Assembly: GCA_022844275.1 (NCBI GenBank)
Contig: JALHMB010000006.1
Location: forward strand, 277,001 to 341,000
DNA: 64,000 nucleotides
Source of the DNA: Hyphomicrobiaceae bacterium
GTDB taxonomy: Bacteria > Pseudomonadota > Alphaproteobacteria > Rhizobiales > Hyphomicrobiaceae
Direction of reading: 5' to 3'
The translations under genes and the position numbers were made by a program. Shown one piece after another: positions 17,395-61,116 of this stretch. Every line of letters begins with the position of its first letter. The first letter of the stretch is position 1. A model generated the notes under the pieces. The model saw only the letters and a program-made list of their open reading frames with translations. It searched no databases and had not been told where the DNA came from.

Positions 17395-17560
17395 CTATTG
17401 TGATGATCGAGAAATTCGCCACGTCTCGCGGCTCGGTACTGAGCGAATTTCTCGATCTGAATCACACTAGGAACAACATGGCTCTAGTGTCCCTTTTGAT
17501 TCCGAAGTTCGCTCGACGCGTCAATATTGAGGTATGGCGACTTCGGAATCGGGACACTAG
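17395..17560 (-). repeat. Family B double-hairpin repeat, copy 1 (inverted relative to copies 2 and 3)
   Basis: 166 bp made of two long imperfect hairpins. Hairpin B (17395-17470) has ends CTATTGTGAT and ATCACACTAG. Hairpin A (17484-17560) has ends CTAGTGTCCC and GGGACACTAG. A 13-bp linker joins them. It lies between the divergent SpoU methyltransferase and quinone oxidoreductase genes and ends only 20 bp before the latter's ATG. Copies 2 (29640-29807) and 3 (60949-61116) have hairpin A first. Confidence 0.9.
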
Positions 17561-17580
17561 ATTCGAAGAGGAGGTGTCAC

Positions 17581-18555
17581 ATGAAGGCCGCCCTGTGCAA
17601 GTCGCTGGACGGACCCGCGGCTATCGTGATCGAGGAGATCGCCGATCCCCAGCCCGGCCCCGACGAGGTCGTGGTACGGGTCCGTGCGGCAGCCCTGAAC
17701 TTCCTCGATACGCTGATCACGCGCGGGAAATACCAGTTCAAACCGGACCTTCCGTTCTCACCGGCGGCCGAGATCGCGGGCGTGGTCGAGGCCGTGGGCA
17801 CGGGTGTCGGCGACCTGAAGCCGGGCCAGCGCGTGTGCGGCTACATCGCCTGGGGTGGCGCGCGCGAGAAGGTGGCTGTGCCCGCCAAGCTCATGATCCC
17901 GATACCTGATGGCGTCAGCGATGCGACCGCCGCCGGCATCAGCGTCACCTACGGTACGGCCATGCATGGCCTCAAGGATCGAGGCAGCCTCAGGGCTGAC
18001 GAGAGCGTGGCCGTGCTCGGTGCCTCGGGTGGCGCGGGCCTCGCCGCCGTCGAGATCGCCAAGCTCATGGGCGCGCGCGTGATCGCGGTCGCCTCGAGTG
18101 CGGAGAAGCTCGCCGTATGCCGCGATCATGGTGCCGATGAGCTGCTGAACTACGCGACGACGGACCTCAAGAACGGCCTGCGCGAACTCACCAGCGGCAA
18201 GGGCGTCGATGTCGTCTATGACTGCGTCGGTGGCGATTATTCCGAGTTGGCACTGCGCTCCATTGCCTGGGGCGGCCGCCTGCTCGTGATCGGCTTTGCG
18301 GCAGGCAGCATCCCGAAGATCCCGCTCAATCTCTTCCTGCTCAAGAACGCCGCTGCCGTCGGCGTCTTCTGGGGCGAGATGATCATGCGTGAGCCCGAAC
18401 AGCACCGCGCGAACATGATCGAGGTTCTCGATTGGTGCGCCAAGGGCCGGCTCAAGCCGCACGTTCATGCCTCCTACCCGCTCGCGCGTATCGGCGAAGC
18501 CATCACGGCGCTCGACAAGCGGCAGGTCACGGGCAAGCTGATCGTCGAGATCTGA
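17581..18555 (+). CDS. NADPH:quinone oxidoreductase (zinc-free MDR family)
   Basis: A 324-residue zinc-independent medium-chain dehydrogenase of the quinone oxidoreductase type. N-terminal GroES-like domain (ALCKSLDGPAAIVIEEIADP), then the Rossmann motif LGASGGAGLAAVEIAK near residue 145. The start at 17581 has an ideal Shine-Dalgarno (AGGAGG). The short leader between the repeat and the ATG means transcription must start in or before the family B element, so hairpin A may be part of the 5' leader. Exact substrate unknown. Confidence 0.88.
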   Translation: MKAALCKSLDGPAAIVIEEIADPQPGPDEVVVRVRAAALNFLDTLITRGKYQFKPDLPFSPAAEIAGVVEAVGTGVGDLKPGQRVCGYIAWGGAREKVAVPAKLMIPIPDGVSDATAAGISVTYGTAMHGLKDRGSLRADESVAVLGASGGAGLAAVEIAKLMGARVIAVASSAEKLAVCRDHGADELLNYATTDLKNGLRELTSGKGVDVVYDCVGGDYSELALRSIAWGGRLLVIGFAAGSIPKIPLNLFLLKNAAAVGVFWGEMIMREPEQHRANMIEVLDWCAKGRLKPHVHASYPLARIGEAITALDKRQVTGKLIVEI

Positions 18556-18572
18556 ACTCTGTGGCTGTACAG

Positions 18573-19331
18573 ATGGCTCTCTACGATACGATCGGAAGAA
18601 ACTATGCTGAGGCGCGGCTGCCGGACCAGCGGATCGCATCCGCTATCCATGCTGCGCTCGGAGACGCAACAAGCGTAGCCAACATTGGTGCCGGTACCGG
18701 TTCATACGAGCCGCTGGATCGCGCTGTCATCGCGATCGAGCCGTCCGAAGTGATGATAACGCAACGTCCGGCTGGAGCCCCGCCGTGCATACAGGGGTCG
18801 GCCGAGGCGCTGCCGCTGGAGACGGCCTCGGTCGATGCGGCCATGGCGATTCTCACCATCCACCACTGGTCCGACTTGGAGCTCGGCCTCAGCGAGATGG
18901 CGCGCGTCGTGAGCAAACGCGCCGTCCTGTTCACATGGGTGCCGGATGCAGCACCATTCTGGCTGACGGAAGACTACTTCCCGGAAATCGCAGCCAACGA
19001 CCGCAAGATCTTCCCCAGCGCGGACACGCTCACTCGGATACTGGCACGCGGGATCGGGCCTGCGCGCATCCTGCCCGTTCTCATCCCTCATGATTGCACC
19101 GACGGGCTGCTCTGCGCCTATTGGCGCAGACCGGAAGCCTATCTGAGCGCCAAAGTACGCAACGCCATGTCTGCCTTCGCGCGGATCGATGCTGAGGCCG
19201 GCTTGGCAAAGTTGCAGGCCGACCTTTCGAGCGGCCGCTGGGCACAACGGAACAAACATCTTCTGGAACTCGACAGTGTGGATTGGGGCTATCGCCTCGT
19301 TTGCTGCGAAATCGAAGGCAACACCAGGTAA
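18573..19331 (+). CDS. Class I SAM-dependent methyltransferase
   Basis: A 252-residue protein. Motif I is NIGAGTGSYEP (residues about 36-46), followed by the acidic AIEPSE strand and MAILTIHHWSDLELGLSEM (motifs of the UbiE/small-molecule type). The start MALYDTIGRNYAEARLPD is taken from the ATG at 18573; a GTG at 18561 is possible, and neither has a good Shine-Dalgarno. It lies 17 bp after the quinone oxidoreductase gene, so probably shares its transcript. Substrate unknown. Confidence 0.82.
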   Translation: MALYDTIGRNYAEARLPDQRIASAIHAALGDATSVANIGAGTGSYEPLDRAVIAIEPSEVMITQRPAGAPPCIQGSAEALPLETASVDAAMAILTIHHWSDLELGLSEMARVVSKRAVLFTWVPDAAPFWLTEDYFPEIAANDRKIFPSADTLTRILARGIGPARILPVLIPHDCTDGLLCAYWRRPEAYLSAKVRNAMSAFARIDAEAGLAKLQADLSSGRWAQRNKHLLELDSVDWGYRLVCCEIEGNTR

Positions 19332-19425
19332 GCCTTCGCATCACCTGCCGGCGCCCTGCCGGTTCCTCCCCGCTCCACGCCGGGCCTAGCCCCGGCTTCA
19401 AGCCAAACCAATCGGCTGCCACCTC

Positions 19426-20157
19426 ATGACTGCGGAAATGCTGCTCATCATTGCCGGCGCCTTCGCGGGCGGGCTCGTCAACGGGCTGACCGGCTTCGGT
19501 ACAGGCATGACGGCGCTCGTGCTCTGGCTGCACGCGCTGCCCGTCACCGTCGCAGCGACGCTCGTCCTCGTCTGCTCCGTCGTCGCGCAGCTTCAGTCGC
19601 TGCCCTCGATCTGGCACGCGCTCGACTGGCGCCGCCTCACGCCATTTCTGATCGGCGGCCTCATCGGCATTCCGCTCGGGACATGGCTGCTCGTGGTCGT
19701 GTCGGTACAGACGGTGAAGCTCGGCGTCGGGCTCGTGGTCACGACCTATTGCGCGATCATGCTGCTCGGTAGCTTTCGCCCGACCATCCATTGGGGCGGT
19801 CGCATCGCGGACGGTATCGTCGGACTCGCAGGCGGCGTTCTCGGTGGACTTGCGGGCCTCTCGGGCGCGCTTCCAACCATCTGGGCGAGCCTCCGCGGTT
19901 GGGACAAGGATGCGCGCCGCGCCGTCTTCCAGGGTTTCAATCTGACGATCTTGAGCGTGTCGCTGATGGCGCACGCGGCAGCCGGCCTCGTGACGGCAGA
20001 ACTCGGCCACGCGGCACTGCTCGCGCTGCCCGGAACGCTCGTCGGCGCTTTCATCGGGCAGCGCATTTACCGCCTACTCGATGATCACCGCTATGACCGG
20101 CTCGTCCTCGCGATCCTGCTCGTCGCGGGCCTCACCCTGCTCTGGTCGAGCTTCTAG
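19426..20157 (+). CDS. TauE/SafE-family sulfite/organosulfonate exporter-like permease
   Basis: A 243-residue integral membrane protein with about seven or eight helices. Both halves carry the family's glycine-rich repeat: GAFAGGLVNGLTGFGTGM at the N-terminus and GLAGGVLGGLAGLSGALPTI in the middle. The family moves sulfite, sulfonates or other organic anions. The substrate here is not predictable. Its last 26 bp overlap the convergent MFS gene. Confidence 0.85.
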   Translation: MTAEMLLIIAGAFAGGLVNGLTGFGTGMTALVLWLHALPVTVAATLVLVCSVVAQLQSLPSIWHALDWRRLTPFLIGGLIGIPLGTWLLVVVSVQTVKLGVGLVVTTYCAIMLLGSFRPTIHWGGRIADGIVGLAGGVLGGLAGLSGALPTIWASLRGWDKDARRAVFQGFNLTILSVSLMAHAAAGLVTAELGHAALLALPGTLVGAFIGQRIYRLLDDHRYDRLVLAILLVAGLTLLWSSF

Positions 20158-21424
20158 CGTCGCTCAGCGGCGAGGCGGCACCTGTCGATGGCTCTTCAGT
20201 GCGATCCCCGCGCGGATCCAGTTCGAAGACGGCGGGTGTCGTCTTCGGCACGATGACGAACGGCTCTGATCGCTCTGTCGGCGGTTTCGGCCGCATCTGC
20301 GCACGCAACAGCATGACGAGTGCAATGCTGGCATGGGCCACCGCGGTGTGAAGGTACAATCCGCCATGCCCGAAGGCTTGCATCATAGCCGAAGCCAACA
20401 TCGGCCCGAGGATGGCACCTGCCGAGAAGACAAGCAGCAGGCCGCTCGACACCTCGACCGCGCGCTTCCTGTGCACGAGGTCATTCGCGTGCGCGACGCA
20501 GAGCGTGTAGACGGTGAACGCCATGCTGCCATAGAGAACGGCAAGGCCGAACAAAGCTGCCACACCGGCGCTCGACATTGCATAGAGGGATGTGCCGGCC
20601 AAGGCCGCGACCACACACACGACAATCGCCACGGCCCGTCGTCCCACCTTGTCCGACAGCCGGCCGATCGGCCACTGGCTGACGGCACCCCCGAGCACGG
20701 CCAGCGACATGAAGAATGACGTATTGCGTACCGATAGCCCCGCGCCTTGCGCGAACAGCGGCGAGAACGTCCAGAAAGCGGAGTTCACGAGCCCCGCGGC
20801 GAAGCAGCCGAACACAGAAGCGGGCGATACCGTAATCAACCATCCGAGCCGCATCTTGGCTCTTGGAGGCGGCTGCGGCGCACTCTGCCGCGTCAGCGCG
20901 ATAGGAACGGCCGCGAGCGAGTACAGGATGGCGACGAGCGAGAAGAGCTCGAAGCTCGCCGGCTGCCCGGCGGACACGAGCAGCATGCCGACCGTGACGA
21001 CCGTCAGGTTGGTCATCGCATAAGCGCCGAGGACGCGGCCGCGGTTCTCGGGCTGCGATGCACCGGTCAGCCAGCTTTCGATGATCATGAACAGGCCGGC
21101 GAACACGAGGCCGTTGATCGCCCTCAGCCCCCACCACATCCACGGCGCCGTCCACATGGCGTGCATGAGCGGCGTCATCGTCGCCAGTGCCGTCGAGGCG
21201 GCAAAGGCACGTATGTGGCCGACCGTGGCAATGACACGCGGCCAGAGCAGGCAGCCGATCATGAGGCCAGCAAAGTGAAACGAGCCCATGAGGCCGATAT
21301 CGAAAGACGAGAAGTGCTCGATATCGGCACGGATCGGCACGAGTACGCCGAACAGCCCATTGCCCATCATCAGGATCGAGGCACTGAGCAACAACGCCGT
21401 AACCGGCCGGAGAATTCCGGTCAT
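20132..21424 (-). CDS. MFS transporter (YcaD-like)
   Basis: A 430-residue major facilitator with 12 predicted helices. The loop 2-3 motif is degenerate, but the second-half equivalent GRLSDKVGRRAVAI is clear. The start is the ATG at 21424 (GGGA about 6 nt upstream; a GTG at 21427 is adjacent). The hydrophilic C-terminal tail (about 45 residues) includes the part antisense to the end of the TauE-like gene. Substrate unknown. Confidence 0.88.
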   Translation of the reverse strand: MTGILRPVTALLLSASILMMGNGLFGVLVPIRADIEHFSSFDIGLMGSFHFAGLMIGCLLWPRVIATVGHIRAFAASTALATMTPLMHAMWTAPWMWWGLRAINGLVFAGLFMIIESWLTGASQPENRGRVLGAYAMTNLTVVTVGMLLVSAGQPASFELFSLVAILYSLAAVPIALTRQSAPQPPPRAKMRLGWLITVSPASVFGCFAAGLVNSAFWTFSPLFAQGAGLSVRNTSFFMSLAVLGGAVSQWPIGRLSDKVGRRAVAIVVCVVAALAGTSLYAMSSAGVAALFGLAVLYGSMAFTVYTLCVAHANDLVHRKRAVEVSSGLLLVFSAGAILGPMLASAMMQAFGHGGLYLHTAVAHASIALVMLLRAQMRPKPPTERSEPFVIVPKTTPAVFELDPRGDRTEEPSTGAASPLSDARSSTRAG

Positions 21425-21457
21425 CACCTATCCCAGTTCTATTGAAGCACTGTGCGC

Positions 21458-21883
21458 TCAGGCGCCGGTCGACAGTTTGTCGAGGAGGCGCATGGCATCA
21501 CGCAGGATGATGTTGTGATCGAACGCCAGATCCACCTTGCGCCAGTCGTCGATCCACTCCACCGCCGCAGCATCGTCCCCAGCCGTCGCCTTCGGCGCAC
21601 GCACACGCGTCAGATAGGCAACGGCCGCCGAATGAAAGCGCGGGTCGCGTTTGGGATCGGAGTAGACGCCGACGAGGTGGAGCTTGCCGGCCTTGACGCC
21701 CGTCTCCTCCATGAGCTCGCGGCGGCAGGCATCATCCACTGTCTCGCCGATATCGACGAAGCCGCCGGGCAGCGCGTAGTGGCCGACGTAAGGCGGATGT
21801 CCGCGCTTAATCAGCAGCACGCGCCCTTTGGCATCGACCGCAATGCAGTCCGTGCAAAGGCGCGGTGTAACAGGCTTCGGCAT
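21458..21883 (-). CDS. Nudix hydrolase
   Basis: A 141-residue pyrophosphohydrolase. The full Nudix box is present: GGFVDIGETVDDACRRELME followed by ETGV, matching Gx5Ex7REUxEExGU. The surroundings (GHYALPGG, LHLVGVYSDPKRDPR) resemble ADP-ribose or dNTP pyrophosphatases. The only Shine-Dalgarno-like stretch (GGGAGAAG, about 9 nt upstream) overlaps the edge of the family A repeat, copy 2. Substrate not determined. Confidence 0.88.
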   Translation of the reverse strand: MPKPVTPRLCTDCIAVDAKGRVLLIKRGHPPYVGHYALPGGFVDIGETVDDACRRELMEETGVKAGKLHLVGVYSDPKRDPRFHSAAVAYLTRVRAPKATAGDDAAAVEWIDDWRKVDLAFDHNIILRDAMRLLDKLSTGA

Positions 21884-21894
21884 AGTGATCTTCT

Positions 21895-22011
21895 CCCTCT
21901 CCCCATTCCTTCAATGGGGAGAGGGTCGGCGTGAGGGGCGGCGGCAAACGCAAACGTTGCTCAAGTTCCCGCCCCTCACCCTAACCCTCTCCCCGCTTGC
22001 GGGGAGAGGGG
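21895..22011. repeat. Family A palindromic repeat, copy 2
   Basis: About 117 bp. It opens with CCCTCTCCCC (21895-21904), which pairs with the nearby GGGGAGAGGG, and closes with CCCTCTCCCCGC pairing with GCGGGGAGAGGG. The inner arms GTGAGGGGCGG and CGCCCCTCAC also match. It lies between the Nudix gene (12 bp away) and the DUF1244 gene (31 bp away), both on the minus strand. Confidence 0.85.
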
Positions 22012-22041
22012 ACTCTCCCGCGCTGGCGTGTGTGCGAATTC

Positions 22042-22350
22042 TCAGTGACTTTGCGGCTTGGACTTCTCGAAGGCGGCCTTCTGCTCGGAAGAGGCCTCCT
22101 TCTGATGCTTGGCCTGCCATTCCTTGTACGGCATCCCGTAGACGATCTCGCGCGCCTCGTCCTTGCTGATGTCCTGCCCCTTTGCGCTGGCTGCCTCCTG
22201 ATACCAGTTCGAGAGGCAGTTGCGGCAGAAGCCGGCGAGGTTCATCAGGTCGATGTTCTGAACGTCACTGCGCGTGCGCAGGTGCTCGACGAGCCGGCGG
22301 AAGGCCGCCGCTTCGAGCTCGGTCGTAGTCGCCTTGTCGAATTTCGCCAT
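22042..22350 (-). CDS. DUF1244 domain protein
   Basis: A 102-residue soluble protein. The conserved core FRRLVEHLRTRSDVQNIDLM followed by NLAGFCRNCLSNWY is diagnostic for DUF1244, a family common in alphaproteobacteria, with the invariant CRNC motif. The Shine-Dalgarno AGGAGAAG is well placed. The C-terminal 30 residues are lysine- and glutamate-rich. Function unknown. Confidence 0.9.
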   Translation of the reverse strand: MAKFDKATTTELEAAAFRRLVEHLRTRSDVQNIDLMNLAGFCRNCLSNWYQEAASAKGQDISKDEAREIVYGMPYKEWQAKHQKEASSEQKAAFEKSKPQSH

Positions 22351-22379
22351 GGCTTACTTCTCCTGTGCTCAATGCCGCA

Positions 22380-23189
22380 TCACAGGCGGTCGAGATTGAT
22401 ATACGGCCGCCCTTTCAACGCATGAACCAGCGCAATGATCCGTTCGGCCCACTGCCGCTGACCCTGGGCATCGCGGATCAGATCCTGACGGATCTCGATG
22501 AGCGCGTTCGGAAGCCCGCGCGCGGTTGCATGCTGCCATAGACAGTCGCCTTCGAGGCTCCCCTTGTAAGGCTCGTTATCGCCGACGATAAGACCACCAT
22601 CGGCGTGGAAATAGTCGAGCATGGGGCCTGAAAGCCGCGCATCGCGATCCCAGAGAATGCCGACATGCCACGGCCGCGGCGCGCCCTTCCAGCTCTCGGT
22701 GAAACTGTGGATCGAGATGATTGATGGAGGCACGCCTGCGCCAACGCAGCGCTCGATCACGTTCTCAATGTTGTCGTGATAGGGCCGATAGTAGCGCGCC
22801 GCGCGCTTCTCCCGCTCGGCCGCATCGAGATGTCGGTTGCCGGGGATCACGGCACCATCCGAGAGCCGCATGATCAGCGTCGGATCATCGGCTCCGCGAT
22901 TGGGATCGATGAGGAGGCGCGAGAAGCGCGTCAGTACGGCCGGCACGTCGAGCGCCGCGGCGATCGCGCGCGTGACGGCGGCCGCGCCGATGTCATAGGC
23001 GATGTGGCGGCGAAGCTGCGACTCCGGCAGGCCGAGCGTGCCGTACTCCGGCGGGAAAGCATTGCCGGCGTGGTCGCATAAGAGGATGAGCCCGGCATCG
23101 GCGCGTCCAGGTACGACGATAAAGCTCTCGGCCTCGACGGCCGCGATTCTCGAGCCCGCTTGGGGTGTTTCTCCGGTGGCATCGCGCAT
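22380..23189 (-). CDS. N-formylglutamate amidohydrolase family protein
   Basis: About 269 residues from the ATG at 23189; the Shine-Dalgarno is weak and the frame stays open to 23261. Family motifs: LILLCDHAGNAFPPEYG near the N-terminus, HIAYDIGA, TRFSRLLIDPNR, and IISIHSFTESWKG with the metal-binding histidine. The classic enzyme cuts N-formylglutamate to formate and glutamate in histidine degradation, but no hut genes are near. Many members act on other N-formyl compounds. It lies 29 bp upstream of DUF1244 on the same strand. Confidence 0.85.
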   Translation of the reverse strand: MRDATGETPQAGSRIAAVEAESFIVVPGRADAGLILLCDHAGNAFPPEYGTLGLPESQLRRHIAYDIGAAAVTRAIAAALDVPAVLTRFSRLLIDPNRGADDPTLIMRLSDGAVIPGNRHLDAAEREKRAARYYRPYHDNIENVIERCVGAGVPPSIISIHSFTESWKGAPRPWHVGILWDRDARLSGPMLDYFHADGGLIVGDNEPYKGSLEGDCLWQHATARGLPNALIEIRQDLIRDAQGQRQWAERIIALVHALKGRPYINLDRL

Positions 23190-23315
23190 GGCGCGGCACT
23201 CTACATCCAAGCCGCGGGCATGGCGACCCGGCGCGACGTTCCGTGCACTCAGAGAAGCCATCCGCCGTCATCATGGCTTCACAAGGTCGCATCATCCGGC
23301 TGCGAGCCGGCAGGT

Positions 23316-23756
23316 TCAATGTCCGGACGCGCGCAGTCGCATCGGCGAGCAGTATAACTCGCTGAGCCCTGCGAGCCCGAGCTTGCCACTGACGAACAGC
23401 ATGAGATGCCGAGTGATCATAGCCGCGAGCGTCAGGCGGTGTCCGGCATCGCGATGATCCGGCTCGAGGGCAATGAGATTGCAGTGATAGACCAACTCGC
23501 GGCAGGTCTCGCGACAGGCGTCGAATGACGGCTCACCCCGCGCGCCCTGGCGATGCAGCGCCAACAGACGGAACCCCCCGTTGCTCGCTTCCGTCGGCGC
23601 CTCGCCCCGCGCGCGCACCCAGGCTTCGAGCACACGCTCGCCGATGGCGAGCAACTCGGCCGCAGCGCACGCCGGCTCGCTACCGCCATCCATGGCAATA
23701 GAGTCGATGCGCTCTTCGATGCCGGCAAATGCCGGATAGGCCACCTCACCGCTCAT
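23316..23756 (-). CDS. Hypothetical protein
   Basis: A 146-residue protein I do not recognise. It is mostly helical and contains CRETCRELVYHCNLIAL near residues 80-95 with three cysteines. No signal peptide or membrane helix. Its ATG overlaps the stop of the upstream methyltransferase in an ATGA junction, which supports it being real and co-translated. Confidence 0.65.
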   Translation of the reverse strand: MSGEVAYPAFAGIEERIDSIAMDGGSEPACAAAELLAIGERVLEAWVRARGEAPTEASNGGFRLLALHRQGARGEPSFDACRETCRELVYHCNLIALEPDHRDAGHRLTLAAMITRHLMLFVSGKLGLAGLSELYCSPMRLRASGH

Positions 23757-24400: not shown

Positions 24401-24412
24401 GTCAGGCGCTTT

Positions 24413-28467: not shown

Positions 28468-29643
28468 ATGTTCGTCACCTTCTTCCATGAGCTCAAGGCC
28501 GCCAAGGTGCCCGTCACCTTGAAGGAATACCTGACGCTGATGGAAGCCCTCCAGGCCGACCTCGCCGACCAGCGCGTCGAGCACTTCTACTATCTTTCGC
28601 GGGCGGCCCTCGTGAAGGACGAGCGCCACCTCGACAAATTCGACCAGGTCTTCGGCCACGTCTTCAAGGGCCTCGAGCTCATGAGCGACGCGGCCGAAGC
28701 GAACATCCCCGAGGAATGGCTCAAGGCCATCTCGAGCCTCTATCTCTCCGAGGAGGAGAAGAAGAAGATCGAGGCGCTCGGCGGCTGGGACAAGATCATG
28801 GAGGAGCTGAAGAAGCGCCTTGCCGAGCAGAAGGGTCGTCACCAGGGCGGCAGCAAGTGGATCGGAACGGGCGGCACCTCGCCTTACGGCGCCGAAGGCT
28901 ACAATCCTGCCGGCGTGCGCATTGGCCAGAAGGAGAACCGCAACTTCCGTGCCTTGAAGGTGTGGGACAAGCGTGAGTTCAAGGATCTCGACGACAAGGT
29001 CGAGCTCGGCACCCGCAACATCAAGGTAGCGCTGAGGCGTCTACGCAAGTTCGCGCGCGAGGGCGCGGCCGACGAACTCGATCTCGACGGCACCATCAAG
29101 GGCACCGCGCGCAAGGGCTATCTCGACATCCAGATGCGGCCAGAGCGGCGCAATGCCGTGAAGGTCCTCATGTTCTTCGATATCGGCGGCTCGATGGATT
29201 ATCACATCAAGCTCGCCGAGGAGCTTTTCTCGGCGGCGCGTGCCGAGATGAAGCACATGGAGTATTTCTACTTCCACAACTGCCTCTATGAGTTTCTGTG
29301 GAAGGACAACAAGCGCCGCTGGACGGAACGGACCCCGACCTGGGACGTCCTGCACAAGTATCCATCCGACTACAAGGTTGTCTTCGTCGGTGATGCCTCC
29401 ATGAGTCCCTACGAGATCAGCGTACCCGGAGGCTCCGTCGAGCACATGAACGAGGAGCCGGGCTCAGCCTGGATCAAGCGTGTGACCGACATCTACGAGC
29501 ACGCTGTATGGCTCAATCCGGTGCCGGAGCAGCACTGGAGTTGGACGCCCTCGATCAAGCTCATGAGTGATCTCATGGAAGGGCGCATGTTCCCGCTGAC
29601 GCTCGACGGCCTCGACAAGGCCATGAAGGAGCTGATGCGCTAG
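28468..29643 (+). CDS. CoxE-like von Willebrand factor A domain protein
   Basis: A 391-residue cytoplasmic protein of the VWA/CoxE-like family that usually works with a MoxR AAA+ ATPase in assembling or activating metalloenzymes. The N-terminal helical part (MFVTFFHELKAAKVPVTLKE) is typical. The VWA domain starts near residue 228, with the metal-site motif FDIGGSMD (Asp238 and Ser242) in its DxGxS form. CCCGGAG precedes the ATG. No MoxR gene is adjacent, which is unusual. The stop codon TAG is the first part of family B repeat copy 2, so the C-terminus (LDKAMKELMR) abuts the element exactly. Confidence 0.85.
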   Translation: MFVTFFHELKAAKVPVTLKEYLTLMEALQADLADQRVEHFYYLSRAALVKDERHLDKFDQVFGHVFKGLELMSDAAEANIPEEWLKAISSLYLSEEEKKKIEALGGWDKIMEELKKRLAEQKGRHQGGSKWIGTGGTSPYGAEGYNPAGVRIGQKENRNFRALKVWDKREFKDLDDKVELGTRNIKVALRRLRKFAREGAADELDLDGTIKGTARKGYLDIQMRPERRNAVKVLMFFDIGGSMDYHIKLAEELFSAARAEMKHMEYFYFHNCLYEFLWKDNKRRWTERTPTWDVLHKYPSDYKVVFVGDASMSPYEISVPGGSVEHMNEEPGSAWIKRVTDIYEHAVWLNPVPEQHWSWTPSIKLMSDLMEGRMFPLTLDGLDKAMKELMR

Positions 29644-29807
29644 TGTCCCGATTCCGAAGTTCGCCATACCTCGATGCTCGTGTCTCGAGCGAACTTTGGA
29701 ATCAAAAGGGACACTAGAATCATAAGCTTGCTAGTGTGATCCAGATCGAGCAAATTCGCTGGATACCGTGCCGCGAGATTGGGCGAAATTCTCGATCATC
29801 ACACTAG
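29640..29807 (+). repeat. Family B double-hairpin repeat, copy 2
   Basis: 168 bp. Hairpin A (29640-29717) has ends CTAGTGTCCC and GGGACACTAG. A 13-bp linker follows, then hairpin B (29731-29807) with ends CTAGTGTGAT and ATCACACTAG. Hairpin A has a conserved unpaired ATCAAAA stretch in its right arm. The first TAG is the stop codon of the VWA gene. The remaining gap to terC (29808-29903) shows nothing else. Confidence 0.92.
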
Positions 29808-34501: not shown

Positions 34502-34620
34502 CCCTTCTCCCCGTCGTTCACGGGGAGAAGGTTAGGATGAGGGGCGGCGGCATACGTCAACGTCAGCACAAGCGGCCGCCCCTCACCCCGACCCTCTCCC
34601 CGCAAGCGGGGAGAGGGGGA
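34502..34620. repeat. Family A palindromic repeat, copy 3
   Basis: About 119 bp. Its first hairpin (CTTCTCCCCGT, 5-nt loop, ACGGGGAGAAG) is identical to that of copy 1 at 16097-16123, and the second is CCCTCTCCCCGC with GCGGGGAGAGGG. It fills the gap between the convergent rsmD and mutL genes and ends 2 bp before the mutL stop, so it could serve as a bidirectional transcription stop. Confidence 0.87.
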
Positions 34621-54346: not shown

Positions 54347-54410
54347 AGATTGCCAGCTCGTCCGCCGTATGGTTCGCTCGCCCTAACAATAGAGATGCGA
54401 GGGACGCCCA

Positions 54411-55130
54411 ATGAGCACAACGCTCACACCTGAGAACCGCGAGAGGCTGAAGAAGATCAGCGTCGCCACGATCACGACAGCGCTGTTCAAGCGCAACTTC
54501 CGCAATCAGTTCATCCAGGACGTCCGTCCTGTCGGAACCAAGGCGCCGCCAATGGTCGGTGAGGCCTATACGCTGCGCTACATCCCCGCGCGCGAGGATC
54601 TCGACCACATCGGCGTCTTCGAGGACCGTTCGCACCCGCAGCGTCGCTCCATCGAGGAATGCCCGCCGGGCCACGTCGTGGTGATCGACAGCCGCAAGGA
54701 CGCAAAGGCGGCATCTGCGGGCGGCATCCTGATCACGCGCCTTATGATGCGCGGTGCCGCCGGTATCGTCTCCGACGGCGGTTTCCGCGACTGTCCCGAG
54801 ATCGCGGAGATGGCCTTTCCTGTCTACCAGAACCGCCCGGCACCGCCGACCAACCTTACGCGCCAGCGCGCGATCGACATCAATGTACCGATCGGCTGCG
54901 GTGACGCGCCCGTCTTTCCCGGCGACATCATCGTCGGTGATGGCGAGGGCGTGGTGGTGATCCCGGCGCATCTCGCCAACGAGATCGCCGAGGAAGGCCA
55001 CGAGATGACGGCCTACGAGGACTTCGTCATGGAGAAGGTGCGCGAAGGCCGCGGCATCTTCGGCCTCTATCCCGGCAATGCGGAGACCAAGGCCGAGTTC
55101 GCTGCCTGGCGCAAAGCCAACGGACGCTGA
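54411..55130 (+). CDS. RraA-like protein (HMG/CHA-aldolase or oxaloacetate decarboxylase superfamily)
   Basis: A 239-residue cytoplasmic protein of the RraA-like fold. ISVATITTALFKR at the N-terminus and GAAGIVSDGGFRDCPEIAEM (with the conserved GxxRD metal/substrate residues) are characteristic, followed by VFPGDIIVGDGEGVVVIPAH. Plant-type RNase E inhibitor activity is unlikely; catabolic members are aldolases or 2-keto-acid lyases. GAGGGA precedes the ATG. It leads a plus-strand group with acyl-CoA dehydrogenases, denD and a 2-hydroxyacid dehydrogenase. Confidence 0.85.
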   Translation: MSTTLTPENRERLKKISVATITTALFKRNFRNQFIQDVRPVGTKAPPMVGEAYTLRYIPAREDLDHIGVFEDRSHPQRRSIEECPPGHVVVIDSRKDAKAASAGGILITRLMMRGAAGIVSDGGFRDCPEIAEMAFPVYQNRPAPPTNLTRQRAIDINVPIGCGDAPVFPGDIIVGDGEGVVVIPAHLANEIAEEGHEMTAYEDFVMEKVREGRGIFGLYPGNAETKAEFAAWRKANGR

Positions 55131-55138
55131 GATCGGGG

Positions 55139-56248
55139 ATGCCAGGTATGGCGCAGCCAACCGCCGGAGCCGGCCTCGTGCAGGGTATTCCGCCCAGCGA
55201 GAGTGCGCCGCGCGCCGTCGCAGACCTCTATCATGCTTACTTCACCGGCCTGATCCTGACCCTGGTCAGCCGCCGTGGCAGCTCCGATGCCGCGCGCTGG
55301 ATGCACGCCGTATTCCGCCACCAGCACCACGAGAAGTTCCTCTCGAGCTTCGAGAAGCTCGGCCTCTCCGGGATGCCGCACGCCGTCGCCTGCGCCGCCT
55401 ATCACTACCTCTCGAACAGCATTGGCGGCGTCGGCGTCGAGTTTATGAAGGAAAGCGACCGCAAGGCCTGGGTGCGCTTCGTGCCGCCGCGCTGGATCTA
55501 CATGGGCGCCGCCATCTGCGGCGTGCCGAGCGAGGTCTCGCGCGGCTTTCTCACTGGCTGGTACGCCCAGAACGGCGTCTCGCTCAAGAACCCGCGCCTT
55601 GGTTTCGTGTGCACGGCGCAGACGGTCGATGGCCAGCATGGTCTCGCGGGCTACTTCAGGGAATACGATCACGATCTCGCGCCCGAGGAGCGGCTCATCT
55701 TCCGCCCCGGCGAGTTGCCGCCGCCCTTCGATCCGGATGCCGCGCCGCGATTGCCGGCGGCCGACTGGACACCCGAGCGCCTCGCGCGCGCCTACCGCAA
55801 CTACGCCATGGAGTATGTCCGCTCAGGTCTGCCGCGCCTGATCGAGCTGTTCGGTGAGACCGAGGGCGCGCACCTCGGCCGCCTCACGGGCCGCCAGATC
55901 GGCGCGCAGTTCTACAAAGAGATCGCCAGCGCGGCGGGCGTTCAGCGGGACGATGCCGAAGCGCTGGCGGATCTCCTGGCATGGATCGCGGAAGGTGAGG
56001 GCGACAGCGCGACAGTCACCCGCGATGGCGACGCCGTACGGCTCTCGCGCACGGGATGGCGGCTCATGCGCGGGGTAGCCGATCCGTCGCCCGGCGTGAT
56101 GGAAGCCTGGAATGGCCTCATCGAAGGCCTCGCCATGGTGCACAACCGCTTCCTGACCATCGATATTGTCGCCCGCGTCGATCATGGAGCGCCACAAACC
56201 GTCTGGCGCATCCGTGAGCGGTCGCGCGGGGCGATCACGATCGCGTAG
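55139..56248 (+). CDS. Unrecognised conserved-looking protein in the RraA cluster
   Basis: A 369-residue soluble protein I cannot assign. It starts 8 bp after the RraA-like stop; an ATG at 55148 has the better Shine-Dalgarno (GGGGA). Seen in it: HAVFRHQHHEKFLSSFEKLG with a histidine cluster near residue 60, then FMKESDRKAWVRFVPPRWIY, then a long middle, GLSGMPHAVACAAYHYLSN, and a helical C-terminal third. No signal peptide or membrane helix. The gene order implies a role in the same pathway as the RraA-like enzyme and the acyl-CoA dehydrogenases. Confidence 0.75.
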   Translation: MPGMAQPTAGAGLVQGIPPSESAPRAVADLYHAYFTGLILTLVSRRGSSDAARWMHAVFRHQHHEKFLSSFEKLGLSGMPHAVACAAYHYLSNSIGGVGVEFMKESDRKAWVRFVPPRWIYMGAAICGVPSEVSRGFLTGWYAQNGVSLKNPRLGFVCTAQTVDGQHGLAGYFREYDHDLAPEERLIFRPGELPPPFDPDAAPRLPAADWTPERLARAYRNYAMEYVRSGLPRLIELFGETEGAHLGRLTGRQIGAQFYKEIASAAGVQRDDAEALADLLAWIAEGEGDSATVTRDGDAVRLSRTGWRLMRGVADPSPGVMEAWNGLIEGLAMVHNRFLTIDIVARVDHGAPQTVWRIRERSRGAITIA

Positions 56249-56263
56249 GCACCAACGTCATCG

Positions 56264-56287
56264 CTCTCCCGCTTGTGCGGGGAGAGG
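56264..56287. repeat. Half copy of the family A repeat
   Basis: CTCTCCCGC, a TTGT loop and GCGGGGAGAGG, matching the second hairpin of the family A elements with one base bulged. It lies 15 bp after the preceding stop. The rest of the gap to 56403 shows nothing further. Confidence 0.6.
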
Positions 56288-56403
56288 AAGAAGAAGAGCC
56301 ATGCGGCGGCGCCTCGCGCACGAATGCCATTTGGCACTTGTCGCCCCCACCACTGCAGGCTTACTCACTCCAACGACAAAGACAGCAGGAGTAGCCGTCC
56401 GCC

Positions 56404-57555
56404 ATGCCGGAGTTCCGCTTCGAGCCGGTGGTCATGCCGCCGGCCGCAACAAGCCTCAGGGCCGAAGTGCGCGCCTTCCTCGACGAGGAGAAAGCCAAGG
56501 GCACGTTCGTGCCGACCGTCGGCGCCATGGTCGCCGCCGATCCCGCCTTCAGCGCACGGCTCGGTGCGCGCGGCTATCTCGGCATGACGTGGCCCAAGCA
56601 GTATGGTGGCCATGAGCGCTCGGCGCTCGAACGCTACGTCGTCGTCGAGGAGCTGCTGGCGGCCGGTTCGCCGGTCATGGCGCACTGGATTGCCGACCGC
56701 CAGAGCGGCCCGCAAATCCTCAAGCACGGCGCCGAGCGCGTGAAGAAGATGATCCTGCCGGAGATCGCCGCGGGTCGCTGCTTCTTCGCCATCGGCATGA
56801 GCGAGCCGGATACCGGCTCCGATCTTGCGAGCGTCAAGACGCGCGCCGTGCCGGTCGAGGGCGGCTTCCGCGTGACGGGTCGCAAGGTGTGGACGAGCTA
56901 CGCGCACATGGCGCACTACGTCATTGCTCTGGTGCGAACGGGCGGGCGCCCCGAGGATCGCCACGTCGGCCTGACACAGCTCATCGTCGACATGAAGTCG
57001 CCGGGCATCGAGGTGCGCCCGATCATCAATGTCTACGGGTCGCACGAGTTCAACGAGGTGACCTTTGACGATGTGTTCGTGCCGGAGGACATGAGCGTCG
57101 GCGGCATCGGCAATGGCTGGGCCATGGTGACGTCGGAGCTCGCCTTCGAGCGCTCGGGTCCGGATCGCTTCATGTCCACCTATCCCCTGCTCGTCGAAGC
57201 CTTCCGCGAGATCGGTGAAAGCCCCAACGCGAGCGAAGCCGCCGAATTGGGCCGCCTCGTCGCGCATCTGGCGACGCTGCGGCGCATGTCGGGCTCCATT
57301 GCGGGAATGCTCAACGAGGGCAAATCGCCGGTCACGGAGGCGGCGTTGGTTAAAGACCTTGGCACGACATTCGAGCAGTCGATTCCGGAGATCACGCGGC
57401 GCCTGCTGCCGCTCGAGCCGCGCGGCGGTGGCAATGGACAGGTATATGACGGCCTGCAGCAGCTCGCGCAGATGCAGGCGCCCTGCTACTCGATCCGCGG
57501 CGGTACGCGCGAGATCCTGCGCGGCATGATTGCACGGGGGCTTGGCCTCAGATGA
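56404..57555 (+). CDS. Acyl-CoA dehydrogenase family protein, first of a coupled pair
   Basis: A 383-residue flavoprotein. Fold markers: GMTWPKQYGGHERSALERYV, FFAIGMSEPDTGSDLASVKT (FAD contact), VWTSYAHMAHYVIALVRT, and a C-terminal YSIRGGTREILRGMIARGLG. GGAG precedes the ATG. Its stop overlaps the start of a second, shorter acyl-CoA dehydrogenase (ATGA), as in heterodimeric alpha-2 beta-2 dehydrogenases of sterol and other ring or side-chain pathways. Substrate unknown. Confidence 0.87.
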   Translation: MPEFRFEPVVMPPAATSLRAEVRAFLDEEKAKGTFVPTVGAMVAADPAFSARLGARGYLGMTWPKQYGGHERSALERYVVVEELLAAGSPVMAHWIADRQSGPQILKHGAERVKKMILPEIAAGRCFFAIGMSEPDTGSDLASVKTRAVPVEGGFRVTGRKVWTSYAHMAHYVIALVRTGGRPEDRHVGLTQLIVDMKSPGIEVRPIINVYGSHEFNEVTFDDVFVPEDMSVGGIGNGWAMVTSELAFERSGPDRFMSTYPLLVEAFREIGESPNASEAAELGRLVAHLATLRRMSGSIAGMLNEGKSPVTEAALVKDLGTTFEQSIPEITRRLLPLEPRGGGNGQVYDGLQQLAQMQAPCYSIRGGTREILRGMIARGLGLR

Positions 57556-58565
57556 GTACGAACGAAGAAGCGGACGGCGTGCGCGACCTCATGCTGCGGT
57601 CGCTCGACCGCATCGTCGAGGAGAAGGCCGAGAACGCGGCACAGCGCGCCGACGGCAAGCCGGGCTTTCCTGCCGACCTCTGGTCGGCACTGGAGGAAGC
57701 GGGCATGACCGCTCTTGGCGAAGAGAACGAAGGCGATCTCGGCCTCGGCAATGCGGCAGCCCTCATCGAGCGCGCCGCCTATCAAACGCTGCCTGTGCCG
57801 CTCGCCGAGACGATCCTCGCGCGGCGCCTGCTCGCCAAGGCAGGTATCGATATTCCCGATGGGGCCCTTTCCGTGGCTCCACCATCGGCAAATCGAGACG
57901 GCAAGGCGGCGGGCGTACCCTGGGCCAGCTCGGTAGCAGGCGTCGTCGTCGCGAGCGGCCCCGATATGCTCGCCCTGGTGGATGCGCGTGAAGCATCGTC
58001 GCCCGGCTTCAACATGGCCGGCGAACCGCGCGAGACCATCGATCTCGGCCGCGCACGGGTCATCGCCTCGGCCAAAGTTGTCGATGCGCCTGGGGTCGCC
58101 GAGGCCGAAGGCGCGCTCATCCGGGCCGTGCAGATGTCCGGCGCCATGTCGCGCGTGCTGGAGCATGGGCTGACCTGGGCCAACGACCGCATCCAGTTCG
58201 GCCGGCCCATTGCGCGCTTCCAGGCTATTCAACATTTGATGGCCGAGCTGGCCGCCGAGGCTGCTGCGGGCAGCGCCTCCGCGCTCATGGCTGTGGAAGC
58301 CGTGGCCGAGCGTTCCGACCGTCTCGCAATCGCCATTGCCAAGGCGCGGACGGGGGAAGCGGCAGGGCGCGTGTGCGCGATCGCACACGAGGTGTTCGGC
58401 GCCATGGGCTTCACCCAGGAGCACACGCTTCACTATGCGACGCGGCGCCTCTGGAGCTGGCGCAACGAGTTCGGCTCGGAGGTTCATTGGCAAGCGGAAA
58501 TCGGCCGGGCGATTGCGGCCGGCGGCGCCGATAACCTATGGGCAACGCTGACCGCGCATGGCTGA
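57552..58565 (+). CDS. Acyl-CoA dehydrogenase family protein, second of a coupled pair
   Basis: A 337-residue, shorter partner. FPADLWSALEEAGMTALGEE at the N-terminus and FGRPIARFQAIQHLMAELAA in the C-terminal helical domain are clear family segments. The middle FAD-contacting loop is less well kept than in the partner, so the two may share active sites. Translational coupling supports a complex. HEVFGAMGFTQEHTLHYATR is standard. Confidence 0.83.
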   Translation: MSTNEEADGVRDLMLRSLDRIVEEKAENAAQRADGKPGFPADLWSALEEAGMTALGEENEGDLGLGNAAALIERAAYQTLPVPLAETILARRLLAKAGIDIPDGALSVAPPSANRDGKAAGVPWASSVAGVVVASGPDMLALVDAREASSPGFNMAGEPRETIDLGRARVIASAKVVDAPGVAEAEGALIRAVQMSGAMSRVLEHGLTWANDRIQFGRPIARFQAIQHLMAELAAEAAAGSASALMAVEAVAERSDRLAIAIAKARTGEAAGRVCAIAHEVFGAMGFTQEHTLHYATRRLWSWRNEFGSEVHWQAEIGRAIAAGGADNLWATLTAHG

Positions 58566-58662
58566 CGGGCGCCGGTCCAGCCGTCGGCAACCGAGTTAGG
58601 CCTTGCGTGGCGGCAGTGCTCTCCGCCACCTTAGAATGATGAATGACGTGGTTCACGCCCCC

Positions 58663-58725
58663 TAGAGCGCGATCGACCTAGATCGGGGCGCTCTTGCGCC
58701 GATCTAGGTCGTGAATCGCGCTCTA
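58663..58725. repeat. Family C long palindrome (TAGAGCGCGAT type)
   Basis: TAGAGCGCGAT (58663-58673) pairs with ATCGCGCTCTA (58715-58725), and the inner ACCTAGATCGG (58676-58686) with CCGATCTAGGT (58699-58709), leaving a 12-nt loop. Palindromes of this AGAGCGCGAT type are common intergenic repeats in Hyphomicrobiales. It lies 46 bp upstream of denD and about 100 bp after the acyl-CoA dehydrogenase, with no T-run on either side. Confidence 0.75.
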
Positions 58726-58771
58726 AACTTATGCTGTAGGGGCGATCGATGCGCGCGGGAGGAAGGCAATC

Positions 58772-59746
58772 ATGAAAGTTCTCATTATTGGTGGCGCCGG
58801 TATGGTCGGGCGCAAGCTCGCGGAGCGGCTGGCCAAGGACGGAACGCTCGGCGGCAAGACCATCACCTCGCTCGCGCTCTATGATGTGGTGCCGCCGCAG
58901 AAGCCGGCCGGCGCAACGTTCCCGGTCGAGATCACCACCGGCGATTTCCCGGCACCCGGCGAAAGCGACAAGCTCGTCGCCAACAAGCCCGACGTGATCT
59001 TCCATCTGGCGGCGATCGTCTCCGGCGAGGCCGAGCAGGAATTCGACAAGGGCTATCGCATCAACCTTCACGGCACGATGAATCTGCTCGAGAGCGTGCG
59101 CCGGGCCGGCAACAAGCCGCGTCTCGTCTTCACGAGTTCGATTGCCGTATTCGGCGCGCCCTTCCCCGAGAAGATCGGTGATGAGTTCTTCCAGACGCCA
59201 CTGACCTCGTACGGGACGCAGAAGGCCATCGGCGAGCTGCTGATTTCCGACTACACGCGCAAGGGGCTGCTCGACGGCGTCTCGATCCGGCTTCCCACCA
59301 TTTGCGTGCGCCCAGGCGCACCGAACAAGGCCGCATCCGGCTTCTTCTCGAACATCATGCGCGAGCCGCTCGCCGGCAAGGAAGCCGTGCTCCCCGTCTC
59401 CGAGGACGTCATGCACTGGCACGCCTCACCACGCGCCGCCGTCGGCTTCCTGTTGCACGCTGCAACAATCGATGGCGACAAGGTCGGTCCGCGCCGCGCG
59501 CTCTCCATGCCGGGCCTCGCCGTAACCGTCGGCGAGCAGATCGCGGCCTTGAAGAAGGTCGCGGGCGACAAGGTCGTGGCGCGCATCAAGCGCGAGCCCG
59601 ATGCCTTCATTCAGGGCATTGTCGCGGGCTGGCCGCGCAATTTCGACACACGCCGCGCGATCGAGTTGGGCTTCAAGCCGGACGCGAGCTTCGAGGAGAT
59701 CATCCGCATTCACGTGGAAGATGAGCTTGGCGGAAAGATCGCCTGA
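58772..59746 (+). CDS. denD: D-erythronate dehydrogenase (DenD-like NAD-dependent epimerase/dehydratase family)
   Basis: A 324-residue short-chain extended dehydrogenase that oxidises D-erythronate to 2-keto-D-erythronate in the characterised DenD family. MKVLIIGGAGMVGRKLAERL carries the GxxGxxG NAD site. FTSSIAVFGAPFPEKIGDEF provides the catalytic Ser, and SYGTQKAIGELLISDYTRKG the YxxxK pair. IRLPTICVRPGAPNKAASGF and SVRRAGNKPRLVFTSSIAV are typical of DenD. GGGAGGAAG precedes the ATG. Close homologues act on other four-carbon acid sugars, so the exact substrate is probable rather than sure. Confidence 0.82.
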   Translation: MKVLIIGGAGMVGRKLAERLAKDGTLGGKTITSLALYDVVPPQKPAGATFPVEITTGDFPAPGESDKLVANKPDVIFHLAAIVSGEAEQEFDKGYRINLHGTMNLLESVRRAGNKPRLVFTSSIAVFGAPFPEKIGDEFFQTPLTSYGTQKAIGELLISDYTRKGLLDGVSIRLPTICVRPGAPNKAASGFFSNIMREPLAGKEAVLPVSEDVMHWHASPRAAVGFLLHAATIDGDKVGPRRALSMPGLAVTVGEQIAALKKVAGDKVVARIKREPDAFIQGIVAGWPRNFDTRRAIELGFKPDASFEEIIRIHVEDELGGKIA

Positions 59747-59777
59747 GCCACCAGAGAAACGAGCCAAGGACGCCATC

Positions 59778-60737
59778 ATGAGCAACAAACTGCAGGCCCT
59801 GCTGTACCTGACCAATGCCAAACCTTATCTCGATCGGTTGGCGGCAGACGGCCTCAACGAGCGCGTGGACTTCAAGGTCGTCGCGACCGGGGAACAGGCA
59901 AGCGACGAGGATCTTGCAAAGGCCGAAGTCCTGTTCGCGCCGGGCATGCCGCCGGGCGCGCTCGCGAAGATGCCGCGCCTCAAGGTCATCCAGTCGCTGA
60001 CGGCAGGCGTCGATCATTGGCTCTCGCGCAAGGATCTGAAGCCCGAGCACACGCTCATTGCAGCGCGCGGCACGCACCGCATTCAGGTGCCCGAGAACAT
60101 TCTCGGCGCCCTCTTCCACATCACGAAGAAGTTCCACCAGATCGCACTTCAGCAGGCCGAGAGCCGCTGGAGCCGCAGCGTTTCCGAGACGCTCGCCGGC
60201 AAGACACTCGGCATTCTGGGCCTCGGCGCCATCGGCCAGCAGCTCGCCATGAAAGCCGCGGCTCTCGAGATGCGCGTGATGGGCACCAAGCGCACGCCGG
60301 AGCCCGTCACTGGAGTCGAGAAAGTCTATGGCTTTGATGAAACCGATAAAGTGCTCAGCCAGAGCGACTATGTCGTCGTGCTGCTGCCGGTGACGCCGCT
60401 GACCGAGAATTATCTAAACAAGACGCAAATTGCGAAAATGAAGCCGACGGCCTGGCTCATCAACTTCGCGCGCGGCGCCATCATCGTCGACCAGGACCTC
60501 ATTGCCGCCGTCAAGGCCAAGACGATCGCGGGCGCCGTACTGGATGTGTTCCGCACCGAGCCCCTGCCTGCGGACGATCCCTTCTGGACGACGCCGGGTA
60601 TCTGGGTTTTGCCCCATATTGGTGGCTTCCATCCCCAGCGAGACAGCTGGGTCGCCGAGCTTCTCTCCGACAATATCCGCCGCTACCTGGACGGCCTGCC
60701 GCTGCGCGAGGTCGTGGACCGCGAGAGGGGTTACTGA
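59778..60737 (+). CDS. D-2-hydroxyacid dehydrogenase (GhrA/SerA-like family)
   Basis: A 319-residue NAD(P)-dependent dehydrogenase reducing or oxidising a 2-keto/2-hydroxy acid. Nucleotide motif LGILGLGAIGQQLAMKAAAL. The catalytic triad is visible as INFARGAIIVD (Arg), DVFRTEPLPADD (Glu) and VLPHIGGFHPQR (His). AAGGA precedes the ATG at 59778; upstream frame overlaps denD. It follows denD by 31 bp, so the two likely act in one pathway. Confidence 0.88.
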   Translation: MSNKLQALLYLTNAKPYLDRLAADGLNERVDFKVVATGEQASDEDLAKAEVLFAPGMPPGALAKMPRLKVIQSLTAGVDHWLSRKDLKPEHTLIAARGTHRIQVPENILGALFHITKKFHQIALQQAESRWSRSVSETLAGKTLGILGLGAIGQQLAMKAAALEMRVMGTKRTPEPVTGVEKVYGFDETDKVLSQSDYVVVLLPVTPLTENYLNKTQIAKMKPTAWLINFARGAIIVDQDLIAAVKAKTIAGAVLDVFRTEPLPADDPFWTTPGIWVLPHIGGFHPQRDSWVAELLSDNIRRYLDGLPLREVVDRERGY

Positions 60738-60948
60738 ACACGGCGGCGATCTGTCGCGCGGTCGGGCGGTGATCATGGCGCTCATGGGGCGAAGAGAGCC
60801 GAAACGGAAAGTTGATGTGGGCCTGGGGCCGTGCTAGACGAACGCCGTCTTTCCGAGCATGGCGCCGCCGGTCTAAGCCGCGTGGGCACTATGTACTATC
60901 CCCACGCATAGGGGCGGCAACGACCCGTTCGGGCCGACCGCGCATGGG
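60738..60948. other. Intergenic region before the atp operon (5' part)
   Basis: No gene. GCGTGGG (60880-60886) and CCCACGC (60901-60907) form a stem with a 14-nt loop, possibly the end of the preceding transcript although no T-run follows. A family B repeat then occupies 60949-61116. The atp promoter was not identified by eye. Confidence 0.5.
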
Positions 60949-61116
60949 CTAGTGTCCCGATTTCGAAGTTCGCCTGACGTCGAACCTGGCGTCCCGAGCG
61001 AACTTCGAAATCATAAGGGACACTAGTAACCGTAACTTTGCTGGTGTGATTCAGATTGAGAAATTCGCTCGGCACCGTGCCGCGAGATCAGGCGAATTTC
61101 TCGATCATCACACCAG
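60949..61116 (+). repeat. Family B double-hairpin repeat, copy 3
   Basis: 168 bp. Hairpin A (60949-61026) has ends CTAGTGTCCC and GGGACACTAG. A 14-bp linker follows. Hairpin B (61041-61116) has ends CTGGTGTGAT and ATCACACCAG. Compared with copy 2, the third base of the left arm and its partner in the right arm of hairpin B have both changed (A-T pair to G-C pair), so pairing is kept. It ends 56 bp before atpH. Confidence 0.92.

Follow-up and report, generated by a model that had tools for sequence, protein, structure and literature searches.

What are the long paired structures that recur in one stretch of an alphaproteobacterial genome and, if they move, what moves them? The stretch (hereafter the window) is 64,000 nucleotides long and covers positions 277,001 to 341,000 of contig JALHMB010000006.1 in the assembly of a Hyphomicrobiaceae bacterium (GCA_022844275.1). 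A first-pass annotation of the window had marked three copies of an element made up of a hairpin A, a short linker and a hairpin B, and had suggested either a repeat mobilised by a transposase or a structural RNA. The reading that we prefer, with a probability of about 0.8, is that the element is a non-autonomous miniature inverted-repeat transposable element (MITE) and that it is mobilised in trans by an IS630-family transposase, namely that of an IS870-like insertion sequence (IS) with CTAG as its target. The three copies would then belong to an unusual CTAG-targeting family of IS630-type MITEs, possibly one with a hinge for integration host factor (IHF) at its centre.

Copy number and mobility

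The element is by no means confined to the three copies from which the first-pass annotation had argued. A covariance model, built from 40 full copies of the window's own genome that came from a DNA search (40 of 77 candidates scored), places the element at at least 54 distinct positions in that genome (6.08 Mb) at 80 bits or more, all of them at least 155 nt long. The same model places it at at least 99 positions in the sister species G003, 94 of which are at least 155 nt long; both counts are lower bounds because 150 candidates per genome were scored. The 40 copies from the own genome are 164-168 bp long. The gap in the element's search pattern is 57-58 nt in this genome, where a pattern with a gap of 60-75 nt matched nothing. 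Fifteen regions with partial matches to the model were inspected for a longer, autonomous relative, and these look like decayed, deleted or divergent copies. A different subfamily is also present in the own genome, at about 2001-2109 of L280 (G000:C3:178921-183029), with the hairpin CTAGTGTCCTTTCGATCGCGAAGTTCG.

The double-hairpin element is mobile, since each of the sites that it occupies in the window is empty in at least two sister species and since one element has been found nested in the CTAG of another. The sites of copies 1 and 3 are empty in G002, G003 and G004, and that of copy 2 is empty in G002 and G003; the empty orthologous sites to which the first-pass annotation had looked are therefore seen, within the genus, for all three copies. 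The host gene next to copy 2 ends CGC-TAG, while the same point reads CGC-TGA in G003 and CGA-TAA in G002, from which it follows that copy 2 has its terminal CTAG exactly at the stop codon. The nested case was found in genome G188 (locus L114), where an element has entered another precisely at the CTAG that separates the linker of the recipient element from its hairpin B; the single CTAG there is now present twice. Neighbouring elements that have one CTAG in common occur at L113 and, by coordinates, at G011:C2:894925-895253. Across the 40 own copies, the left border letters are C in 40, T in 39, A in 39 and G in 40, and the right border letters C in 39, T in 36, A in 37 and G in 34; no duplication longer than CTAG was detectable at these borders.

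Comparison of flanks, in which 42 own loci represent 34 distinct copies and 60 regions of G003 cover part of the 99 places there, puts at least two of the 34 copies at the exact site of one of the 60 G003 loci. At two sites common to both species (L004/L208 and L011/L192) the stem pairs differ by paired double changes, which may reflect either compensation in place or gene conversion. A further candidate for a common site, L014/L164, was dropped, as the alignment beside the element shows different positions. L027 and L203 appear from their flank coordinates to be one homologous region in which both species carry an element, but each at a place that is empty in the other.

A candidate transposase

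Which enzyme could have moved the element? The domain PF13358 (IS630 DDE_3) is matched in 10 of 24 element-bearing genomes, in nine of them over the curated cut-off. When 28 IS630 loci were scanned, 13 proved to have CTAG-bounded ends alike in at least 13 of 26 letters. Four CTAG-bounded ISs of 1146-1177 bp, from G170, G006, G004 (a member of the window's own genus) and G029, begin CTAGTG and end CACTAG, and in three of the four the transposase frame closes on the TAG of the terminal CTAG. Three of the CTAG-bounded IS transposases, when tested, proved to be IS630 equivalogs; plasmids of Sinorhizobium, Bradyrhizobium, Rhizobium and Pseudomonas were the source of further CTAG-bounded ISs. Ten ISs were used for end matching and for a check on inner arms, L240, L250 and L292 being left out because they have other end types.

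The ends of the element closely resemble those of these ISs. Over the 18 letters that follow the CTAG, the outer arm of the own hairpin A agrees with the 3' end of the G006 IS in 17, and the outer arm of the own hairpin B agrees with the 5' end of a Sinorhizobium IS in 15, against a best of 9/18 among 125 control CTAG 26-mers. Matches to the element had been removed from this control; an earlier pool had a best of 17/18, probably from an element copy in a flank. The likeness also keeps the asymmetry of left and right, with hairpin A corresponding to the IS 3' end and hairpin B to the IS 5' end. Roseibium hairpin A matches the 3' end of a Rhizobium IS in 17/18 letters, and the IS of G006 agrees in 15/18 with each end of the element in that same genome. 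For 11 of 12 tested ends, no draw among 5000 best-of-20 controls equals the IS match. Each hairpin is composed of such an IS-like end and an inverted inner copy with about four extra bases; the inner inverted arm was not seen in the ten ISs, where the best matches are 5-7 of 10 and 5-9 of 12 letters, compared with 10 and 12 in the element.

On this scheme, an IS630 transposase would bind the two outer arms, and insertion would duplicate TA or CTAG. The part of the inner arms is the weakest element of the proposal: they would make each end a hairpin, which might insulate transcription and keep insertions benign, or might act as a non-cleavable decoy. The suggestion of an IS630-type MITE, already present in the first-pass annotation, is supported by matching ends at both sides, by the CTAG target, by the empty sites and by the nested insertion. 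Also observed are a large number of copies, insertion sites that turn over between species, and a CTAG, at times slightly decayed, on either border.

The same annotation had also named a TnpA-REP (Y1) enzyme. The element would then be akin to repetitive extragenic palindromes (REP) or bacterial interspersed mosaic elements (BIMEs), copied as folded single strands by a REP-associated tyrosine transposase (RAYT), a Y1 HUH transposase, and it must be said that mirror-image bulged hairpins with a linker resemble a BIME and that the stems covary. However, the domain of that enzyme, PF01797, was present in 5 of 36 genomes and in only two of 19 carriers, one of the two with an internal stop, and the 17 carriers in which it was not found include the own genome and all four others of the same genus. 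Moreover, the nested insertion turned one CTAG into two and left a CTAG on both sides, where a REP or BIME with a RAYT would be expected to insert and leave its target unduplicated. We consider a RAYT origin highly improbable.

Several observations nevertheless weigh against movement by an IS630 enzyme at CTAG. Right borders are less conserved than left ones, with the final G present in 34/40 copies; at the site of copy 3 the sister species have three letters between the flanks, where duplication of CTAG predicts four; the left end of copy 1 carries two extra letters; and the exact duplication, TA (2) or CTAG (4), cannot be fixed from these sites. PF13358 was not detected in the own genome, in G003 or, overall, in 14 of the 24 element-bearing genomes, so that the partner would have to be an enzyme that has been lost, was left out of the assembly, has diverged too far or is of a different type. 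The ISs whose ends match the own element most closely belong to other genera, the frame of the G029 IS stops before its terminal CTAG, no IS is significantly like the hairpin A end of G073 (P 0.29), and the best agreement with ISs for GGAGC-type ends is only 12-13/18 letters.

Target choice and host genes

The terminal CTAG forms the stop codon of a host gene in 11 of 34 own copies and 15 of 60 G003 copies (26/94 in all), whereas two of the window's 28 other CTAGs do so (p 0.02 by Fisher's test on the pooled counts). Copies that lie wholly inside predicted genes number none of 34 in the own genome and one of 60 in G003, against 13 of the 28 window CTAGs (p 4e-9); by a looser count, four of the 34 own copies overlap a predicted gene. 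A simple codon-usage gene caller supplied the gene calls for these counts. CTAG itself is depleted about 7.5-fold in the window, with 28 occurrences outside the elements where base composition leads one to expect 211.

Where CTAG is the C+TAG end of a gene, insertion would regenerate the stop codon, and the host protein would therefore be unharmed. A stop regenerated at C-TAG would explain simply how hosts come to tolerate these elements.

Distribution

The own consensus matches 19 of 60 genomes (the own genome included), all within its own family, and none of 24 genomes from other families. A pattern based on the linker, CACTAG-N10-17-CTAGTG, is matched in 25 of 199 genomes of the order, and in 15 of them, which belong to nine families, the linker resembles that of the element. 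The other ten, with one match each, were not counted as carriers: eight have linkers that look unlike that of the element (G067 being doubtful), and the other two are G041 and G122. Forty stretches around linker matches mostly display the same plan with other stem sequences, although L105 and L116 are cut by contig ends and L140 and L142 have a poor partner for hairpin A. In a class-wide sample the strict linker pattern is matched in 4 of 385 genomes, namely the own genome and three outside the order, the latter being linker matches only.

Complete copies are carried by replicons of Rhizobium, Martelella, Roseibium, Aminobacter and Ochrobactrum, and the match in Agrobacterium vitis is to a B-type hairpin only. 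Named genome records (14 stretches) place the element in Hyphomicrobiales: Hyphomicrobiaceae, Hyphomicrobium and a metagenome-assembled genome titled Bradyrhizobium. The own consensus gave no match to plasmids and phages, but variants from across the order did match plasmid copies. Searches limited to open-licence papers turned up no description of the element.

The genus also has a second family, whose ends are CTAAAG/CTTTAG and whose linkers are of the type AGTCATAGTGTT. Its pattern is matched 8 times in the own genome, 9 times in G002 and 17 times in G003 (2, 7 and 4 times, respectively, by a reversed-pattern control), for example at G000:C6:470283-470306 and G003:C2:2682277-2682300. One copy in G003, with AAA/TTT bulges and, by eye, two bulged hairpins, lies in the intergenic space where the own genome has copy 2.

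Paired arms

The stems of the element diverge widely in sequence between lineages and yet remain paired. Changes in the arms are not left uncompensated, a point on which the first-pass annotation had made its proposal depend: pairing extends to 97.6% of stem cells in the alignment of 40 own copies, and all five covariation measures lie above all 500 shuffles and every slid control. Over stem pairs 1-10 of both hairpins in 66 distinct elements, 1242 of 1320 cells are paired; shuffling the partners gives 1020 on average and 1076 at most. The outer partner was here the best one among 11 positions, a choice that somewhat favours pairing and that the shuffle control does not include. Stem positions 7-10 alternate among TA, GC, CG and AT across these 66 elements.

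Pairing of this kind raises the possibility of a structural RNA or a transcription terminator that has been domesticated, its hairpins being under selection at every site. In favour of this, pairwise identity among the own copies is 0.95 in stems and 0.67 in loops (0.63 in the linker), and the paired double changes at the two sites common with G003 point in the same direction, as does the position of three of four annotated plasmid loci between convergent genes (in an incomplete gene table). The same double changes, though, fit subfamily replacement by gene conversion equally well, and an exact common site was found for only 2 of 34 own copies when these were set against 60 G003 loci. Nor does gene orientation agree with a terminator: 21 of the 34 own copies lie between tandem genes, six between divergent and three between convergent ones, and four overlap a predicted gene. 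Since the loops vary and no Rfam family reaches its gathering score anywhere in the window, the structural RNA entertained by the first-pass annotation is not favoured, and we judge the whole alternative improbable.

A different objection concerns the hairpins alone and is compatible with an IS630-dependent MITE. Pairing could be kept by mutation bias, one arm being corrected from the other through template switching, and not by selection. The two-base paired block that differs between the orthologues L011 and L192 (AA/TT vs GC/GC) is what a single template switch would give; however, unpaired bulges persist across nine families, although correction from arm to arm should erase them, and we think such a bias an unlikely explanation for the pairing.

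The linker as a putative hinge

IHF bends DNA, and it is because of this bending that the linker might serve as a hinge to bring the ends of the 168-bp element together. We rate the chances as even that the linker at the centre is a site for IHF, with a bend that would fold the stiff element so that its ends meet. The linker equals in length the IHF consensus as quoted in PMC5896051, WATCAANNNNTTR. Scored against the nine specified letters, 41 linkers from across the order have a mean of 7.8/9 (7.7 in 28 distinct ones), where the maximum in 1000 shuffles is 4.9; this set keeps all 41, including those of the cut elements L105 and L116 and of L140 and L142. The mean is 7.2/9 in 34 G003 sites, listed as 68 entries for both strands, and 6.4/9 in 40 own linkers, for which the shuffle maximum is 4.7. 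Shuffled linkers overall have means of 4.1-4.4/9 and a maximum of 5.1.

Three findings count against an IHF hinge. In the own genome, linkers are as variable as loops (0.63 vs 0.67, as given above), and the IHF reading is therefore weakened there; linkers of the CTAAAG family score only 5.4/9; and GANTC, which lies at the left edge of the linker in 48 of 82 distinct elements, may explain part of the linker's conservation. In G188, linkers of the kind AAAACAATATCTTG lack GANTC but retain the IHF-like part. The motif is enriched in the element as a whole, at 2.4 per own element compared with 0.65 in shuffles. By eye, this CcrM-type motif is also present in nine of ten IS630 3' ends (L248, L254, L255, L259, L285-L288 and L290), the Pseudomonas IS (L293) being the one without it.

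Taking arms, linker and distribution together, a broader proposal can be framed, though we hold it tentatively and with more doubt than belief. Mirror-ended hairpin elements could be a distinct and old class of IS630-dependent parasites in Hyphomicrobiales, in which a single layout (an IS end and its inverted inner copy with a bulge of four bases, a central IHF hinge, then a second inner copy and the other IS end) has been adapted many times over to different IS ends, the CTAAAG family following the same plan. The inner arms would change in step with the outer ones because the fold is required in its own right, either for synapsis or to shield the host; CTAG targeting would make stop codons safe harbours; and CIR, RIME and Bru-RS repeats would belong to the class.

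The copies in the window

Direct reading of the window bears out most of what the first-pass annotation had described. The three elements have the stated plan of hairpin A (77-78 nt), linker (13-14 nt) and hairpin B (76-77 nt) at the positions given in Table 1; one copy, copy 1, is indeed inverted; and in copy 3 the ends of hairpin B carry a double change, from A-T to G-C, that keeps their pairing. The unpaired bulge reported for hairpin A is present as an AAAA-like bulge in the linker-facing arm, and hairpin B is bulged as well, in its own linker-facing arm. The description of the hairpin B ends was wrong for copy 1, in which the outer end is CTATTGTGAT (CTATTG) and not CTAGTGTGAT. Folded as single-stranded DNA (ssDNA), copy 2 reaches -43.7 kcal/mol, compared with a mean of -19.8 for 200 shuffles.

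Table 1. Window coordinates of the three elements, their parts and the adjoining host open reading frame (ORF)
Feature	Position	Strand	Remarks
Copy 1, whole element	17395..17560	-	RNA-model match G000:C6:294395-294560, 170.7 bits
Copy 1, hairpin B	17395..17470	-	Outer end CTATTG, a decayed CTAGTG; read directly
Copy 1, linker	17471..17483	-	Minus-strand sequence AGCCATGTTGTTC; by eye, matches IHF poorly
Copy 1, hairpin A	17484..17560	-	Read directly
Host ORF, 391 aa	28468..29643	+	Its TAG stop codon lies within the left terminal CTAG of copy 2
Copy 2, whole element	29640..29807	+	183.9 bits; ssDNA fold z -8.3
Copy 2, hairpin A	29640..29717	+	Outer arm like the 3' (transposase stop) end of a CTAG-bounded IS630 (own consensus)
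Copy 2, linker	29718..29730	+	AATCATAAGCTTG; 8/9 specified letters of the IHF consensus WATCAANNNNTTR, counted by eye
Copy 2, hairpin B	29731..29807	+	Outer arm like the 5' end of a CTAG-bounded IS630 (own consensus)
Copy 3, whole element	60949..61116	+	Site empty in G002, G003, G004
Copy 3, hairpin A	60949..61026	+	ATAA-type bulge in the linker-facing arm
Copy 3, linker	61027..61040	+	14 nt
Copy 3, hairpin B	61041..61116	+	Ends CTGGTG/CACCAG, a paired double change

An inverted repeat of another type, CCCCTCACCCTAACCCTCTCCCC, has copies at 16095-16213, 21916-21994 and 34521-34602 of the window, and that at 16095-16213 is also repeated in G002 and G004.

Comparison with known systems

The closest autonomous relatives would be ISs of the IS870 type. 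IS870, which we take to belong to the IS630 family, reportedly (Fournier and colleagues, 1993) uses a CTAG target that supplies a stop codon, and three of the four ISs translated here likewise close their frame on CTAG. Such ISs differ from the element in being autonomous, in their length (1146-1177 bp in the four that were read) and in being without inner inverted arms in the ten ISs compared; IS870 itself enters this comparison by description only. The covarying inner arms of the element pose a general question, namely whether a transposon end must fold.

As a non-autonomous repeat, the element would work much as RUP does in Streptococcus pneumoniae, which is described as 107 bp long with 9-bp terminal repeats, is present in about 100 copies and is thought to be moved by IS630-Spn1 (PMC2229807). 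Both are short non-coding intergenic repeats with IS630-like ends and a TA-containing target. They differ in that the element has a bulged hairpin at each end, a CTAG target, a layout found across the order and a 13-nt IHF-like linker, whereas no functional DNA motif is reported for RUP in the part of PMC2229807 drawn on here. Such a motif is described there for the Correia/NEMIS repeats of Neisseria, MITEs with TA ends and an internal IHF site that binds IHF in vitro (PMC2229807). The element has TA ends too, and its IHF-like site is putative; the Correia/NEMIS repeats have 24-bp terminal inverted repeats and, in their 155-bp form, an IHF site within an internal segment of 50 bp, while the element consists of two separate hairpins. 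Its architecture would be that of a 168-bp unit that may carry its own IHF hinge, letting its ends meet.

Within alphaproteobacteria, the Bru-RS1/2 repeats of Brucella are palindromic and intergenic, as is the element, but they are 103-105 bp long and are reported as a target of IS711, Bru-RS1 containing the YTAR site that this IS uses (PMC3163539, PMC2267715). The CIR repeats of Caulobacter and Brucella come nearer: they are about 110 bp long, with two arms and a linker, GANTC and TA at their termini, and the same 2007 review that describes them held that how they move needs more work (PMC2229807). Like the Bru-RS repeats, they were compared with the element by description only. Could the element then belong to the same class as CIR, RIME or Bru-RS, with only the partner enzyme and the hinge being new? 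The published outline of CIR fits in its arms, linker, GANTC and TA termini, as well as in its alphaproteobacterial hosts and intergenic position, and GANTC is enriched in the element too. However, the element is about 168 bp long and not about 110 bp, and its GANTC lies at the stem base and the linker edge, not in the terminal loop as in CIR; we think identity of class rather unlikely, if less so than any other alternative considered above. Two-armed intergenic repeats had already been noted in alphaproteobacteria, and for these the CTAG-targeting IS630 transposases now provide a concrete candidate partner.

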